Assembly: GCF_030382115.1 (NCBI RefSeq)
Contig: NZ_JAUDRJ010000003.1
Span: forward strand, 1-41,020
Source of the DNA: Nostoc sp. GT001
GTDB taxonomy: Bacteria; Cyanobacteriota; Cyanobacteriia; Cyanobacteriales; Nostocaceae
Reading direction: 5' to 3'
DNA length: 41,020 nucleotides
Shown here one piece after another: positions 27,526 to 33,366 of this stretch. Below the pieces are notes generated by a model, which saw only the letters and a list, made by a program, of their open reading frames with translations, ran no database searches and was not told where the DNA came from. The position numbers were made by a program, and so were the translations under genes. The first letter of the stretch is position 1. Each line of letters opens with the position of its first letter.

Positions 27526-28446
27526 ATGATTGACCATAGCGATCGCATACTCTCTCATAAACAAGGTAGATTCCCAGGTGTTGGAGGACTTGAACTGTAT
27601 TATCAAAGCTGGCATCCAGAGGGTAAAGTCCGGGTAATATTAGCCATTGTGCATGGACTCGGAGCACACAGCGATCGCTACAGTAATATAATTGAGCAGT
27701 TGATACCCAAGCAATATGCTGTCTACGCCTTAGACTTGCGTGGTCATGGACGCTCACCGGGTCAGCAAGGCTATATCAACGCTTGGAGTGAGTTTCGTGA
27801 AGACTTGGGAGCTTTTTTACAGTTAATTCAGACTCAGAATCCTGGATGTCCAGTTTTTCTCTTGGGTCACAGTTTAGGCGCGGTGATTGTCTTAGATTAC
27901 ATTCTCCGATATCCCCAACAAGCATCATTATTGCAGGGTGCGATCGCTCTTGCGCCAACTTTGGGTAAAGTAGGGGTTTCACCGATTCGGGTGCTTTTAG
28001 GAAAAATGCTCTCACGAGTGTGGCCGCGTTTCACCCTGAATACAGGCATTGACATCAGTGCTGGTTCACGAGAACCCCAGGTTTTAGCTGCCATTGCTCA
28101 GGATACAATGCAACATACCCGTGCTGCTGCCCGTCTGGCTACAGAATTCTTTGCAACAGTTGATTGGATTAATGCTCATGCAGGTGATTGGCAATTACCA
28201 TTATTGATTCTCCACGGTGGCGCAGACCGAGTAGCTTTGCCAGGGGGAAGCGATATTTTTTACCAAAGGCTAAACTGCACAGATAAGCTGAGAATCGAGT
28301 ATCCAGGAGCCTATCACGAACTTCAGAGTGACATAAATTACCGCGAGGTACTAGCTGATTTGGAAGACTGGTTGGAGCGACACCTACCATCTGAGGTAGT
28401 GCAGTTAGCACGGGAAAGCGCTGAGTTAGAGTTTCCTAGTTCTTAG
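27526..28446 (+). CDS. Alpha/beta hydrolase, monoacylglycerol-lipase-like
   Basis: This 306-residue cytosolic protein has the Hydrolase_4/serine aminopeptidase S33 layout. AIVHGLGAHSDRY gives the oxyanion loop, ALDLRGHGRSPG is the typical second motif, the nucleophile is Ser116 in LLGHSLGAVIVLDY, the acid Asp234 in LHGGADRVALP and the base His264 in PGAYHELQSD. These features are characteristic of monoglyceride lipases and related esterases, so it probably hydrolyses acyl glycerols or similar esters. The C-terminal 25 residues are acidic and extra. It stands alone, converging with the SDR gene 18 bp away. Confidence 0.9.
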   Translation: MIDHSDRILSHKQGRFPGVGGLELYYQSWHPEGKVRVILAIVHGLGAHSDRYSNIIEQLIPKQYAVYALDLRGHGRSPGQQGYINAWSEFREDLGAFLQLIQTQNPGCPVFLLGHSLGAVIVLDYILRYPQQASLLQGAIALAPTLGKVGVSPIRVLLGKMLSRVWPRFTLNTGIDISAGSREPQVLAAIAQDTMQHTRAAARLATEFFATVDWINAHAGDWQLPLLILHGGADRVALPGGSDIFYQRLNCTDKLRIEYPGAYHELQSDINYREVLADLEDWLERHLPSEVVQLARESAELEFPSS

Positions 28447-28464: not shown

Positions 28465-29235
28465 TTACCAAGGCAATCTGCTACCATCCCATGAGAAAAA
28501 GTGTCCGCTATCGCCTTCTTGAAGCTGTTCGATGACAGCCAATAATTGGGTAACAGTACGTTCCACTGAAAATAATTTTTCCGCAGGGACATTTCTTTGG
28601 AAAGGACGAGAAAGGCTGGTATCAGTTGTACCAGGATGTAATGTTACTATTAATGCTTTCGGACAACTTCTTTTATACTCAATTGCCGCAGTTCGCATCA
28701 ACATATTGAGTGCTGCTTTAGAAGCCCGATAGCCATACCATCCACCAAGTTGGTTATCGCCAATACTGCCCAATTTAGCAGAAATAGTGGCGAAGACGCT
28801 GCGATCGCCATGACGAAACAGAGGCAATAAATGTTTAGCCAGTAAGACAGCACCAATACTATTTATCTGAAAGTAGCGCAGCAAATTTTCTGAATTGATC
28901 TGTCTTAAGCTTTTTTCAGGTTGCAAAGTATCTTCATGTAACAGTCCTACACAGTTGACTACCAAATGCAGTTTGTCAACTTGAGTATGTATTTTTTGAA
29001 CAGCTTCAATAATCTGTAACTCGTCAGTAATATCCATCTCCAAACAAATTAATCGCTCAGGACATTCGTCTGCAAGAGCTATTAACTCTAAGGCTGATTT
29101 CGGTTGACGAGAAGTTGCATAAATTTTAGCTATTCTGCGATCTTGTAGCAATTTTTTCACACAACCCAAACCAATACCTTGGCTGGCTCCCACAATCAAA
29201 GCATTGACAGGATTAATTTCATCGATAAAAGACAT
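28465..29235 (-). CDS. Short-chain dehydrogenase/reductase coupled to arsS
   Basis: This 256-residue SDR has the nucleotide-binding motif GASQGIG near residue 17, LICLEMDITDE, the NCVG motif in LHLVVNCVG, an active-site serine region SAKLGSIGD, and the YRASK catalytic pair (YxxxK). The ATG at 29235 overlaps the arsS stop by one base (TAATG), so translation is coupled; an in-frame start seven codons upstream would lie inside arsS and is less likely. SDRs reduce or oxidise carbonyl/hydroxyl groups with NAD(P)H. Its position suggests a role after ArsS in arsenosugar formation, for example acting on the ribosyl moiety, but it could be an unrelated hitchhiker. Confidence 0.88.
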   Translation of the reverse strand: MSFIDEINPVNALIVGASQGIGLGCVKKLLQDRRIAKIYATSRQPKSALELIALADECPERLICLEMDITDELQIIEAVQKIHTQVDKLHLVVNCVGLLHEDTLQPEKSLRQINSENLLRYFQINSIGAVLLAKHLLPLFRHGDRSVFATISAKLGSIGDNQLGGWYGYRASKAALNMLMRTAAIEYKRSCPKALIVTLHPGTTDTSLSRPFQRNVPAEKLFSVERTVTQLLAVIEQLQEGDSGHFFSWDGSRLPW

Positions 29236-30242
29236 TAGAGCAAAGCGCCACCACAACTAGAACCACACCCAGCAGTACAACCATAGCAATAAGCAGCAGT
29301 TTGTACATCACTAATCAGGTCTAAATTGCCAGCTTCTAACAATTTGCCAACTGTCAAAGTTTCACCATTGCGAGTTTTTGCAGGCAAATTCATCATTTGG
29401 TTAAAGTCACAATCATATACATTGCCCAGATAGTCAATTGAAAGTTCATCGCGACACATTAAATGTTCAACTGTGCTGGGATTAAAATGCGACTCTAAAA
29501 ACTGCAAATAGCTAGCGTATAGTTTTCTCCGCTCTAAATACATTTTGGTTCTACCAACTGGTAGGTTGGTAAAGGTGAAGAGGTTGTTAAACACAATATT
29601 AAAATGTTCTTGCAAGAACATTTTGTAATCTCGTTCTAGGTTACTCTGTTCGGGAGCTAAAGAAAATTTTTCATCGGTGGGCAACTGAGGATTAAAAACC
29701 AAGTCTAAAATTAAGTTTTGGTCTTTACCATAGCCGAGTTCGTTAAGCCACTGCAAAGCTTTGACTGAACTATCAAAAACACCAGTACCGCGCATTTTAT
29801 CAACATTATCTGCTAGGTAACAGGGTAGAGAAGCCACAACTCTTACTTGGTGTTTAGCAAAGTATTCTGGTAAATCACCAAATCCATCTTCAAAATAAAT
29901 GGCCAAATTAGAGCGGACAATCACTTGTTTACCAGTTGCTTTTGCTGCTTCTACCAGTGGCTTAAATCCATAATTCATTTCAGGCGCGCCACCAGTCAAA
30001 TCCACAACTTTAATTTCAGGAAAATTATGGATTAGTGAAATCAATTGTTGGCAAATTTCAGGAGAAAGTTCTTCTGTACGTTTTGGCCCGGCTTCGACAT
30101 GACAGTGTGTACAGGCCAGATTACAACGCTTACCTAGATTAATTTGTAAAACAGTGATTCCTTTTTTTGTCAAAGGTGAACTGAGTTTATTTTTAAAGGC
30201 TGTGACTGCTGTATCTCGTAGAATTTTTGCTTGAGTTTGCAT
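29235..30242 (-). CDS. arsS: Radical SAM arsenosugar biosynthesis protein ArsS
   Basis: This 335-residue enzyme has the radical SAM cluster motif CNLACTHCH (Cys40, Cys44, Cys47) and the GGAPEMNYGF segment. It ends with the cysteine-rich tail CYGCTAGCGSSCGGALL, which probably binds an auxiliary cluster. In the known pathway ArsS transfers the 5'-deoxyadenosyl group of SAM to dimethylated arsenic made by ArsM, giving the dimethylarsinoyl-deoxyadenosine precursor of arsenosugars. LPVGRTKMYLERRKLYASYL and EHLMCRDELSIDYLGNVYDC are typical of the family. It lies 43 bp after the phosphate permease and is coupled to the SDR. arsM is in the same locus. Confidence 0.93.
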   Translation of the reverse strand: MQTQAKILRDTAVTAFKNKLSSPLTKKGITVLQINLGKRCNLACTHCHVEAGPKRTEELSPEICQQLISLIHNFPEIKVVDLTGGAPEMNYGFKPLVEAAKATGKQVIVRSNLAIYFEDGFGDLPEYFAKHQVRVVASLPCYLADNVDKMRGTGVFDSSVKALQWLNELGYGKDQNLILDLVFNPQLPTDEKFSLAPEQSNLERDYKMFLQEHFNIVFNNLFTFTNLPVGRTKMYLERRKLYASYLQFLESHFNPSTVEHLMCRDELSIDYLGNVYDCDFNQMMNLPAKTRNGETLTVGKLLEAGNLDLISDVQTAAYCYGCTAGCGSSCGGALL

Positions 30243-30285
30243 TAGTTACTACTCCTAAAAAATTGCACAACAATATTCAACTTTT

Positions 30286-31251
30286 CTAACCTTGCAATAA
30301 TCTGTAGGTTATTGCACTAATAATTCCAGCAGTTGGTAAAGTTAAAATCCACGATAGTAGAATCTGATAAAAAACACGCGTATTAGATTTAGATTTTTTG
30401 CTAATTAATCCTACACCAAAAATCGAACCAACTGAAACGTAAGTGGTAGAAACTGGAAGCCCAAACCGAGTAGCTGCAATCACCAGAATCCCAGTGACTA
30501 TATTTGCTGATAAGCCTTGAGTATGATTCATTGAGGTAATCTTTTCACTCATGGTTATTGCAACTTTTTGGGAGTTGAGTAAACCGCCAAGTGCCATTGC
30601 GATCGCTATTGTGATCATTCCTCCCTGAATCGAGAAATACTCAATAATGAGGATGAGTGAAACAATCTTAGGAGTATCATTTAAGCCTCTAGCAAAACTG
30701 ACAATTGCAGTACTGAAAAAATGACACCCATCAATCATTTTTTGGTTGACTGGTAGATGCCATTTTGAATTAATATAGCCAGATAAGCTGTAAATTCCTG
30801 CTCCCAAGGGAATAGCAATAATTGGACTGAGTAATAAAGGCAAAACAAAGGAAGTTCCTAAAGCTGCAAAATTAACTTGTAATCCGATTGCAACTAATCC
30901 AGCGCCAACCAGCGCACCTGTTAAACTGTGAGTTGTGGAAATAGGAAACCCCATAAGGGTAGCAATGAGTACAGTCAATCCAGTAGCGATCGCAACTGCG
31001 AGATGAAACTCTGGAGAATTAGCGATCGCATCAGGTAATAGTCCTTTTCCAGAGAAATTTTTAATTAATACTCCTCCTAAAAAAGTCGCAGTTATTGCAC
31101 CAGCAAAAGTTGTAAAAGTTGCCCACAAAATTGCTGTTTGATAACTGCTAGTTCGGCTACCAAACAGCGTCGCTACACCTTTAAAATTATCATTTGCTCC
31201 ATTTGAATATGCTAAAAAAAGCGTAGCTAAAAATAGACTAATTAACAACAT
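30286..31251 (-). CDS. PiT-family inorganic phosphate transporter
   Basis: This 321-residue membrane protein has about ten membrane segments in two inverted halves. The first half begins with the PiT signature SNGANDNFKGVATLFGSRT; the second carries the partner FARGLNDTPKIVSL, and PISTTHSLTGALVGAG with VSTTYVSVGSIFGVG are the repeated conserved loops. PiT permeases move phosphate by H+ or Na+ symport and also take up arsenate as an analogue. Its place between arsM and arsS links phosphate/arsenate uptake with arsenic conversion. It starts 268 bp after arsM, a gap filled with repeats, and ends 43 bp before arsS. Confidence 0.92.
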   Translation of the reverse strand: MLLISLFLATLFLAYSNGANDNFKGVATLFGSRTSSYQTAILWATFTTFAGAITATFLGGVLIKNFSGKGLLPDAIANSPEFHLAVAIATGLTVLIATLMGFPISTTHSLTGALVGAGLVAIGLQVNFAALGTSFVLPLLLSPIIAIPLGAGIYSLSGYINSKWHLPVNQKMIDGCHFFSTAIVSFARGLNDTPKIVSLILIIEYFSIQGGMITIAIAMALGGLLNSQKVAITMSEKITSMNHTQGLSANIVTGILVIAATRFGLPVSTTYVSVGSIFGVGLISKKSKSNTRVFYQILLSWILTLPTAGIISAITYRLLQG

Positions 31252-31267
31252 TTTGGAGTTTATAAAG

Positions 31268-31515
31268 AAGAAAGAATTCAGAATTCAGAATGTAATTAGT
31301 GAAATATTCAAATTGCGCATTCATTACCCAGCGATGCACTGACTTGTACTGAGCGCAGTCGAAGTAGCTTGTCGTACTCCTCCGGGGAAGCAAGCTACGC
31401 GAAGCGTCTGTCTGCAACACGCTGCGCGAACGTAGAGAAGGAAGTGTCGCACAGAACCATTCTGTTAGCGGATAGCTAAGGTTTAGCCCATTCTGACACC
31501 TGAATTCTTTCTGAA
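31268..31515. repeat. Dispersed repeats between arsM and the phosphate permease
   Basis: GAATTCAGAATTCAGAATG (31273-31291) and the inverted arm CATTCTGACACCTGAATTC (31489-31507) bound a stretch of palindromic repeats (CTGAGCGCAG, GGGGAAGCAAGCTACGCGAAG, GCTGCGCGAACGTAGAGAAG). The insertion separates arsM from the rest of the locus. Confidence 0.7.
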
Positions 31516-31519
31516 TAAA

Positions 31520-32488
31520 TCAACAGCAGCCACCACCGCTATAGTGCCAGGTTGAATCGGTAACAATTATTTCTGCTGGCTTACTAGCAGCAAGTTTAGC
31601 AGCAGTTTTATCACACACCGCAGCCGGAATACCTAACTGAAGTATATGACCTGCCAAATCGTCAAAGAAGGGTTCAGAACCAGCATAAATTGCTGTTTTT
31701 CCAGTGAATATGCAAGCACCATCTTCTGGAATGATAACTTTAAATGAGACAGAATCCAGACTTTCTAAAAGTAAGTTTTCTTCTAAATTATAAGTCTGGG
31801 AATCTAGTAGGCGATAAGGACGACGGGCACGAATTTCAACTTGACCAAAACCAGCATTTATAATCCTTTCAGTATACTCTTGATATGTGAGTGCGCCTGA
31901 TAAACACATGGCTCTCAGTCGCTCATCTTCTTGAAGATGTGCTGGAATTGGACGAGTAGCAATTGGATCGCTCATCTGCAAGCGTCCACCTGGTTTTAAT
32001 ACCCGATATGCTTCTTTTAAAGCACGAGTTAAATCTTGTGGTTCAAAGATGTTGAAAAGGCAATTTTGTGCCACGATATCGACGCTAGCATCAGCAACAG
32101 GTAAGTTAAAAGCATCACCTTCGCAGATTTCTACAAAGCTGGTGTTAAACCAGGGGTTTTCTTGAGCAGCAATTTCCAGATTACGTGCAGCTGCTTCCCG
32201 CATGGCCCCAACCGGTTCAACGGCAATTACAGCACTTGCATAACGGGAAAAATAAGCGAATTGCAACGCTTCTAAGCCGCCACCAACACCGACGTACAGC
32301 ACTGTAGGTTGGTTTCCTAGTTCGGTAGGGTGAACAGTGGTGCCACAGCCATAATTCATTTCCTGCATTAGCAAAGGAATTTTCAATCCTGGTAATTGCA
32401 GGGGCGTACTTTGTACACAACAAAGTCCAACTTGCGGGGTTTGGGCAACTTCGCGGTAGAACTGCGCTGCTGTTTCTAGATAGGTCAT
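31520..32488 (-). CDS. arsM: Arsenite S-adenosylmethionine methyltransferase ArsM (arsenosugar type)
   Basis: This 322-residue enzyme methylates arsenite with SAM, giving the methylated arsenic used by ArsS. The SAM motif is VLYVGVGGGLEALQFAYF; three cysteines at 48 (MNYGCGTT), 143 (AQNCLFNIF) and 195 (LRAMCLSGAL) have the spacing of the arsenic-binding cysteines of ArsM enzymes. YRVLKPGGRLQMSD is the typical post-motif. A C-terminal domain (about 250-322) carries cysteines at CIFTGK and AAVCDK and ends HYSGGGCC, likely a thiol-rich arsenic site. An adjacent CC pair (23-24) lies near the start. The response regulator gene ends 203 bp upstream on the same strand. Confidence 0.93.
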   Translation of the reverse strand: MTYLETAAQFYREVAQTPQVGLCCVQSTPLQLPGLKIPLLMQEMNYGCGTTVHPTELGNQPTVLYVGVGGGLEALQFAYFSRYASAVIAVEPVGAMREAAARNLEIAAQENPWFNTSFVEICEGDAFNLPVADASVDIVAQNCLFNIFEPQDLTRALKEAYRVLKPGGRLQMSDPIATRPIPAHLQEDERLRAMCLSGALTYQEYTERIINAGFGQVEIRARRPYRLLDSQTYNLEENLLLESLDSVSFKVIIPEDGACIFTGKTAIYAGSEPFFDDLAGHILQLGIPAAVCDKTAAKLAASKPAEIIVTDSTWHYSGGGCC

Positions 32489-32691: not shown

Positions 32692-33366
32692 TCAATCATG
32701 CAATGTGTAGCCAACACCAATCACAGTTTGAATGAGACATTTTTCATTATTGGCTTCAAGTTTCAGGCGCAGGTAGTTAATGTAAGGTTCAATGATGTTA
32801 GCATCGCCCATGAAGTCATAACCCCAGACTTCCTCTAAAATGCGATCGCAGCTAATTATCTGTCGCGGATGGGCCAGTAAATATTCTAGTAAATGAAATT
32901 CTTTAGCAGTTAACTCAATTAACCGCCGATCTCGATACACTTCGCGTGTGCGACGATTTAAACTCAGGTCTTCAAATTCTAAAACATCTGCGTACTCTAC
33001 TTGATTGCTTCTTCGTAGGCGAGCGCCGACTCTGGCTAATAATTCATCAACGCTGAAGGGTTTAACAAGGTAATCATCAGCACCAGCGTCTAAACCTGCA
33101 ATGCGATCGCTTACTTCATCTTTGACGGTTAATAAGATTATCGGCACTTTCTCAGATATGCTCCGCAAGCGGCTGCAAATTTCCCACCCCGACAACCCAG
33201 GCAACATCCAGTCTAAAATTACTAAATCCAGATGCAACTCCCTTGCTGCGGTAAGTGCAGTTAATCCATCGTAGGCAATACTGACTTGATAGCCTTCATA
33301 ATTCAATTCCAATTCGACAAATCGTGCCAGTTTGACCTCATCTTCAATCAGTAAGATGTGCGTCAT
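32692..33366 (-). CDS. OmpR-family response regulator
   Basis: This 224-residue protein has an N-terminal receiver (Glu8-Asp9-Glu10 cluster, phospho-acceptor Asp52 in VILDWMLPGLSG, Thr80, Lys102 in YLVKPFS) and a C-terminal winged helix (LSLNRRTREVYRDRRLIELT, VWGYDFMGDANIIEPYINYL, TVIGVGYTLHD). It is close in feel to cyanobacterial RppA/ManR-type regulators, some of which respond to metals. No kinase gene adjoins it. It lies directly upstream of arsM on the same strand with a 203-bp gap, so it may control or be co-expressed with the arsenic locus; that is inference. Confidence 0.9.
   Translation of the reverse strand: MTHILLIEDEVKLARFVELELNYEGYQVSIAYDGLTALTAARELHLDLVILDWMLPGLSGWEICSRLRSISEKVPIILLTVKDEVSDRIAGLDAGADDYLVKPFSVDELLARVGARLRRSNQVEYADVLEFEDLSLNRRTREVYRDRRLIELTAKEFHLLEYLLAHPRQIISCDRILEEVWGYDFMGDANIIEPYINYLRLKLEANNEKCLIQTVIGVGYTLHD

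Follow-up and report, generated by a model that had tools for sequence, protein, structure and literature searches.

Background

Among the closest described systems to the locus considered here is the cyanobacterial ArsM-ArsS arsenosugar pathway. ArsM methylates arsenite. ArsS is the adenosylating enzyme that adds a 5'-deoxyadenosyl group, according to the available parts of two papers (PMC12159101, PMC8552651). In the accessible sections of related reports, NsarsM (alr3095) is not adjacent to an arsR (PMC5258700), phosphate transport genes are known in arsenic islands (PMC3834237), and a pitA has been noted next to the arsinothricin genes of B. gladioli, so that a permease of the inorganic phosphate transporter (PiT) family near an organoarsenical cluster has a precedent (PMC8552651). 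We analyzed a stretch of 41,020 nucleotides from Nostoc sp. GT001 (assembly GCF_030382115.1, contig NZ_JAUDRJ010000003.1, positions 1 to 41,020), referred to in its entirety as the window, in which genes for a response regulator, ArsM, a PiT permease, ArsS and a short-chain dehydrogenase/reductase (SDR) follow one another in that order on the minus strand. The locus resembles the described pathway (NF038099, TIGR04167) in holding arsM and arsS in one gene set, but differs from it in having a PiT gene between the two and a response regulator upstream; in the open-licence literature we found no paper that names either of these with arsM-arsS. Our analysis points to a Nostocales arsenosugar set with a divergent permease as a recurrent member, and to an SDR that came to lie at its end by rearrangement.

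Results

The preliminary description of this DNA, made from the sequence alone, had assigned arsM and arsS to arsenosugar synthesis, and both proteins score above curated NCBIfam cut-offs. The arsM product (31520..32488, minus strand, 322 aa) reaches 570.8 bits against the arsenosugar-type arsenite methyltransferase model NF038099 (AsSugarArsM, cut-off 400) with 321 of 321 positions covered, and the radical SAM enzyme ArsS (29235..30242, minus strand, 335 aa) scores 417.5 bits against TIGR04167 (cut-off 300) and carries the CxxxCxxC motif as CNLACTHC at residue 40. Between them, the permease gene (30286..31251, minus strand) encodes 321 aa that match PF01384 at 193.4 bits (cut-off 33.7) over profile positions 1-350 of 350, and both of its PiT repeats match the Thermotoga maritima PiT 6l85 (E 2.7e-26). 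The protein falls below the PitA-type model NF033774 (59.8 bits, cut-off 800) and below the CysP sulfate permease model NF053884 (76 bits, cut-off 400). As first described, all these genes and the SDR share one strand and the permease ends 43 bp before arsS. The gap between arsM and the permease is 268 bp in the window (31252..31519) and 13-18 bp or 107-461 bp elsewhere, the shorter class accounting for 26 of the 57 adjacent pairs measured (two loci counted twice). The short gaps along arsM-PiT-arsS in many relatives are consistent with co-transcription, which we infer for the three genes.

The association of the permease with arsenic genes was surveyed in two samples: 80 named arsS loci, the best 80 of 422 confirmed stretches, and 386 cyanobacterial genomes, which overlap by at least two genomes (L027 = L143, L034 = L142). 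Contiguous arsM-PiT-arsS was present in 44 of the 80 loci; a PiT match of any kind occurs in 47. On a tree of arsS with 80 rows (the window and 79 loci; L022 was left out for its short upstream DNA), the presence of PiT required 7 changes, compared with 25.8 when the labels were shuffled. The clade of PiT proteins to which the window's permease belongs, named here for two lysines described below, was found in 19 of the 386 genomes; these are the 19 kept from 115 with matches, a group at ~26-32% identity being left out, as was the partial match of G050 (53%), which lies next to a Proton_antipo_M gene where its contig ends. In 18 of the 19 the permease lies by arsenic genes or their relics, and in 13 neither arsM nor arsS is more than 1 kb from it (in G197 split over two contigs). 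Among the others, it adjoins arsM in G019, with arsS 48 kb away, adjoins an ArsM-like gene in G185 (324 bits against NF040538, below the cut-off of 500), and stands beside an arsM relic in G042. In G099 (L206:5835-10577), PiT, arsR, an aquaporin gene, arsH, arsC and arsS form a row on one strand, and the arsenosugar-type arsM is more than 1 Mb away. In G167 (L141, 5705-7201), arsM and arsS have decayed to fragments, and the PiT reading frame between them is open, with Asn at position 195.

The window's permease departs from canonical PiTs at two corresponding positions. The sequence is GANDNFK in repeat 1 and GLNDTPK in repeat 2, with Lys24 (codon 31180..31182, minus strand) and Lys195 (codon 30667..30669, minus strand) where 6l85 and a second, canonical PiT of the same genome (C3:507749-508912) have Asn. 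We take the paired Asn sites of canonical PiTs to be sodium ligands. Both repeats of the window's protein have D-x-x-K and not the D-x-x-N taken here as the mark of a sodium-coupled PiT. Because both Asn residues are lost, the sequence suggests that the double-lysine PiT is most likely not sodium-coupled, and the changes argue against an ordinary sodium-phosphate symporter. Among 59 distinct clade proteins (61 extracted), Lys24 is present in 58 (all but L145) and Lys195 in 55 (all but L067, L141, L150 and L154), and the Asp of repeat 2 differs in 17. Asn in repeat 1 followed by Lys in repeat 2 occurs in E. coli PitA, which is annotated as a metal phosphate:H+ symporter, and in four other PiTs compared; a repeat-1 Lys was not seen in any of six other PiTs compared at this site. 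A CxC...C loop lies between the repeats of the longer PiTs of Acinetobacter (L208:10350-11462), G185 (L205:6363-7484) and G099 (L206:5835-6950), and the Cupriavidus PiT has a different cysteine-rich loop there. The CxC...C loop is absent from the Nostocales and Priestia forms, and two canonical PiTs have a single cysteine in this stretch. The Nostocales forms appear to have lost this loop, which in the longer proteins could bind trivalent arsenic.

Relatives of the permease are also found on plasmids of other phyla. A tblastn search of 72,556 plasmid records with the window's PiT (E 1e-15) returned seven, in Acinetobacter, Cupriavidus and five similar Priestia plasmids; all seven have both lysines, and all are located with arsS or with a gene for a radical SAM protein with an RCCLKC tail. 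In Acinetobacter portensis the cluster comprises arsS, TIGR04283 and TIGR04282 glycosyltransferases, an ArsM-like methyltransferase (177 bits against NF008823, below the cut-off of 263), the PiT gene starting 22 bp after it, and mtnP on the opposite strand. The plasmid record of Cupriavidus KK10, which carries no annotation, holds PiT, an ArsM-like gene (NF040538, 334 bits, cut-off 500), a carboxymuconolactone-decarboxylase-family gene, arsS (TIGR04167, 466 bits) and genes for a pyridine nucleotide-disulphide oxidoreductase and a VTT-domain protein; its PiT, used as a query against the plasmids, returned itself and the Acinetobacter protein only. The Priestia block consists of the RCCLKC-tail radical SAM protein, an aquaporin, a GTP-binding or cobalamin-type protein, a small hypothetical protein and PiT. 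In four of the five plasmids it is followed by genes for ArsI or a glyoxalase-family protein, for ArsR and for ArsN1, and by ars efflux genes, whereas the fifth (H4) has no more than an upstream ArsR/SmtB regulator. This block (L211:2137-6936 and L213-L216), beside arsenic resistance genes in four of five cases, is a possible organoarsenical pathway.

As a control, the canonical PiT matched 34 other plasmid records, of which ten were inspected, a non-random set picked for annotation. All ten have Asn in both repeats, and no arsS, arsM or radical SAM gene is annotated within 6 kb of them. An ArsR/SmtB-family regulator lies near two, one of which (L218) also has a permease matching PF03773 ArsP_1 (240 bits, with NCBIfam matches below cut-off), so that one of the ten may be arsenic-related. 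ArsS itself was detected on 52 plasmid records, 47 of them from Burkholderia. There was no PiT within 7-8 kb of arsS in one B. glumae record and in the Hymenobacter record, which suggests that arsS clusters often do without one.

S-methyl-5'-thioadenosine (MTA) phosphorylase is annotated in or near the arsS clusters of A. portensis (L208:11457-12320) and Burkholderia glumae (L212:117-998), and the enzyme is a candidate for the adenine-removing step.

The SDR gene (28465..29235, minus strand, 256 aa from its ATG) matches PF00106 (98.8 bits) with intact glycine-rich and YxxxK motifs; its best NCBIfam model, PRK09009 (NF006532), is not passed (260.4 bits, cut-off 330). It shares one base with the arsS stop codon (TAATG, 29233..29237), as originally described, and the two genes may now be translationally coupled. 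The preliminary description had taken the SDR as a candidate for a later arsenosugar step and had named its absence beside arsS in nearly all relatives as a finding that would refute this. The survey gave that outcome, with the SDR nearly always away from arsS. SDR relatives at 53% identity or more were kept in 58 of 107 matching genomes (left out were partial picocyanobacterial matches at 41-48%, G010 at 44%, the truncated G101 with a stop, and G229 at 34%). Of the 386 genomes, 175 have arsS above cut-off, and it was placed in 105, the picocyanobacterial rows being left out. Fifty-five of the 58 SDR genomes have a placed arsS; the two genes lie within 5 kb of each other in only two of these (the window's genome and G125), on the same contig but at least 138 kb apart in 28, and on different contigs in 25. 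The remaining three (G167, G183 and G151) have the SDR and no arsS above cut-off. Among the named arsS loci, the SDR adjoins arsS in 7 of 80 (L009-L015), or 7 of 73 by a fairer count, since in seven loci that lack it the sequence runs out within 1.5 kb of arsS. The nine adjacent loci (the window, G125 and L009-L015) fall in one set of ten rows on the arsS tree (support 98/81), in which L017 lacks the SDR, so that adjacency is restricted to one small Nostoc clade. An SDR next to arsS in Hymenobacter was considered as possible kin and rejected: its match had E 0.48, and two unrelated SDRs aligned better (4.6e-8 and 6e-4).

The neighbors of the SDR also record how the junction arose. In all eight other adjacent loci, a spacer of ~275 bp separates arsS from the SDR, and in all eight it matches a decayed GNAT acetyltransferase (named by Pfam PF00583), a match that stops 10-13 bp short of the SDR; the window alone shows the TAATG overlap. 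Of 20 further SDR loci, 11 have mnmE (TIGR00450, 524.5 bits, cut-off 252.6) upstream on the same strand, no more than 2.5 kb away, and three (L119, L122 and L123) have an intact GNAT gene. G338 (L123) has mnmE first, then GNAT and then the SDR, which begins 10 bp after the GNAT gene. There is no such mnmE in the other nine, the most distant loci included, and the mnmE neighborhood therefore characterizes near relatives. The genome of the window still has the first 32 GNAT residues just downstream of mnmE (75% identity, E 1.1e-6), ~2.53 Mb from arsS. The relics next to the SDR and the GNAT start beside mnmE indicate that the end of the arsenosugar operon was joined into the GNAT gene and that deletion then made the overlap. 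We infer this order of events, with the later deletion, confined to the window's lineage, erasing the GNAT relic and creating TAATG.

The remaining features lie at the two ends of the locus. An orphan OmpR-type response regulator (32692..33366, minus strand; PF00072 and PF00486) lies 203 bp upstream of arsM and adjoins it in 53 of the 80 arsS loci; its best NCBIfam model is NblR (236.7 bits, below the cut-off of 300). No tandem repeats resembling the pho-box pattern were found in the window. The count of promoter-like sites was uninformative, at 7 compared with 12.3 on average in shuffled sequence; terminator-like sites numbered 12, against 5.0 after shuffling. Beyond the SDR, a convergent gene for an alpha/beta hydrolase (27526..28446, plus strand; PF12146) is also found near the SDR in the native loci L119, L121 and L122.

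Discussion

The window holds a Nostocales arsenosugar gene set of response regulator, arsM, PiT and arsS, with an unrelated SDR joined to its end by rearrangement; of this architecture and history we are highly confident. Extended by a permease that moves an oxyanion without sodium, the reading taken whole has a probability of roughly 0.5. In it, ArsM methylates arsenite and ArsS attaches the 5'-deoxyadenosyl group, as is established for these families, and the permease would serve this and other organoarsenical pathways. Its most likely activity would be the export or exchange of pentavalent arsenicals (arsenate, methylated arsenate or an oxo-arsenosugar), possibly against phosphate, since an inside-negative membrane would favor the exit of anions through an uncoupled permease. 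We put such a role as exporter or exchanger at a little under even odds. It is doubtful that the double-lysine proteins as a whole constitute a dedicated sodium-independent subfamily that works alongside ArsM and radical SAM enzymes, across three or more bacterial phyla, to export or exchange pentavalent (organo)arsenicals.

Several observations weigh against this reading of the permease. PiT is missing from 33 of the 80 arsS loci, and the double-lysine clade from 57 of the 74 genomes with an arsenosugar-type arsM. The gene remains intact in G167 although only relics of arsM and arsS are left, and in G284 its neighbor is the regulator, without any arsenic gene there. Because the five Priestia plasmids are alike, the plasmid evidence amounts to about three independent cases, and an AlphaFold2 model of the permease (26 sequences) had a mean pLDDT of 34.7 and was discarded. 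Finally, E. coli PitA has the repeat-2 lysine, which makes this residue compatible with import.

Import is the close alternative: phosphate or arsenate would enter through the permease during arsenic exposure, restoring phosphate or bringing in arsenate, and the lysines would only switch coupling from sodium to protons. The preliminary description had proposed such import, and of its account the tie to arsenic genes stands, in other phyla as well, whereas arsenate or phosphate uptake becomes one possibility only. Membership of the PiT family, the annotation of PitA as a proton symporter, and phosphate genes in arsenic islands or pitA by arsinothricin genes in the available parts of the literature (PMC3834237, PMC8552651) all favor import, but the genome already holds a canonical PiT, and the repeat-1 lysine of the arsenic-linked proteins is absent from the six other PiTs and from the ten sampled plasmid PiTs. 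We regard import as plausible, though short of probable. The permease might also be the functional partner of the response regulator, in a phosphate response for example, with arsM and arsS as passengers. G284 retains the regulator and PiT without arsM there, and G042 and G167 retain both beside arsM relics. However, regulator-arsM-arsS without PiT is common among the 80 loci, no such regulator was seen next to PiT in G099, G185 or the plasmid cases, where PiT is tied to arsenic genes, and no tandem pho-box-like repeats were found in the window; this pairing is improbable. Least credible, to the point of near-exclusion, is a role for the SDR in reducing a carbonyl intermediate on the way to arsenosugars. 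The strand, overlap and intact motifs of the SDR speak for it, but the gene is rarely beside arsS, occurs without an arsS above cut-off in three genomes and usually neighbors mnmE and GNAT, with a GNAT relic even in the eight other adjacent loci. The arsS-SDR arrangement is young and uninformative on function.

With the SDR set aside, the later steps of the pathway lose a misleading candidate; the MTA phosphorylase and the glycosyltransferases (TIGR04283, TIGR04282) annotated in proteobacterial arsS clusters seem better suited. The recurrent PiT-arsenic gene association, with its clear sequence signature, is not one we found described in the open-licence literature, where our search likewise returned no paper that brings arsenosugars together with ArsS and a short-chain dehydrogenase, or with a transporter of inorganic phosphate, and where the accessible text assigned a transporter neither to arsenosugars nor to their precursors. 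The permease, recognizable by a simple residue signature and physically linked with organoarsenical enzymes in Cyanobacteria, Proteobacteria and Bacillota, is a concrete gene to test.

Compared with known transporters, the window's protein is like 6l85 and E. coli PitA in its full Pfam match, its two repeats and its conserved STT motifs, but unlike 6l85 (Asn/Asn) and PitA (Asn/Lys) it is short (321 aa) and has Lys/Lys. Compared with known gene clusters, the locus resembles the aio-ars-pst-phn arsenic islands, as far as the available text describes them (PMC3834237), in tying arsenic genes to phosphate-type transport; those islands combine arsenite oxidase with Pst or Phn, whereas the window combines methylation and radical SAM genes with PiT. 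A further parallel is the arsQML arsinothricin cluster of B. gladioli, in which, according to the accessible parts of its description (PMC8552651), a radical SAM enzyme, ArsM and a permease share one operon with pitA nearby. There, an assay showed that the GntP-type permease ArsQ exports the product, whereas the permease of the window belongs to the PiT family.

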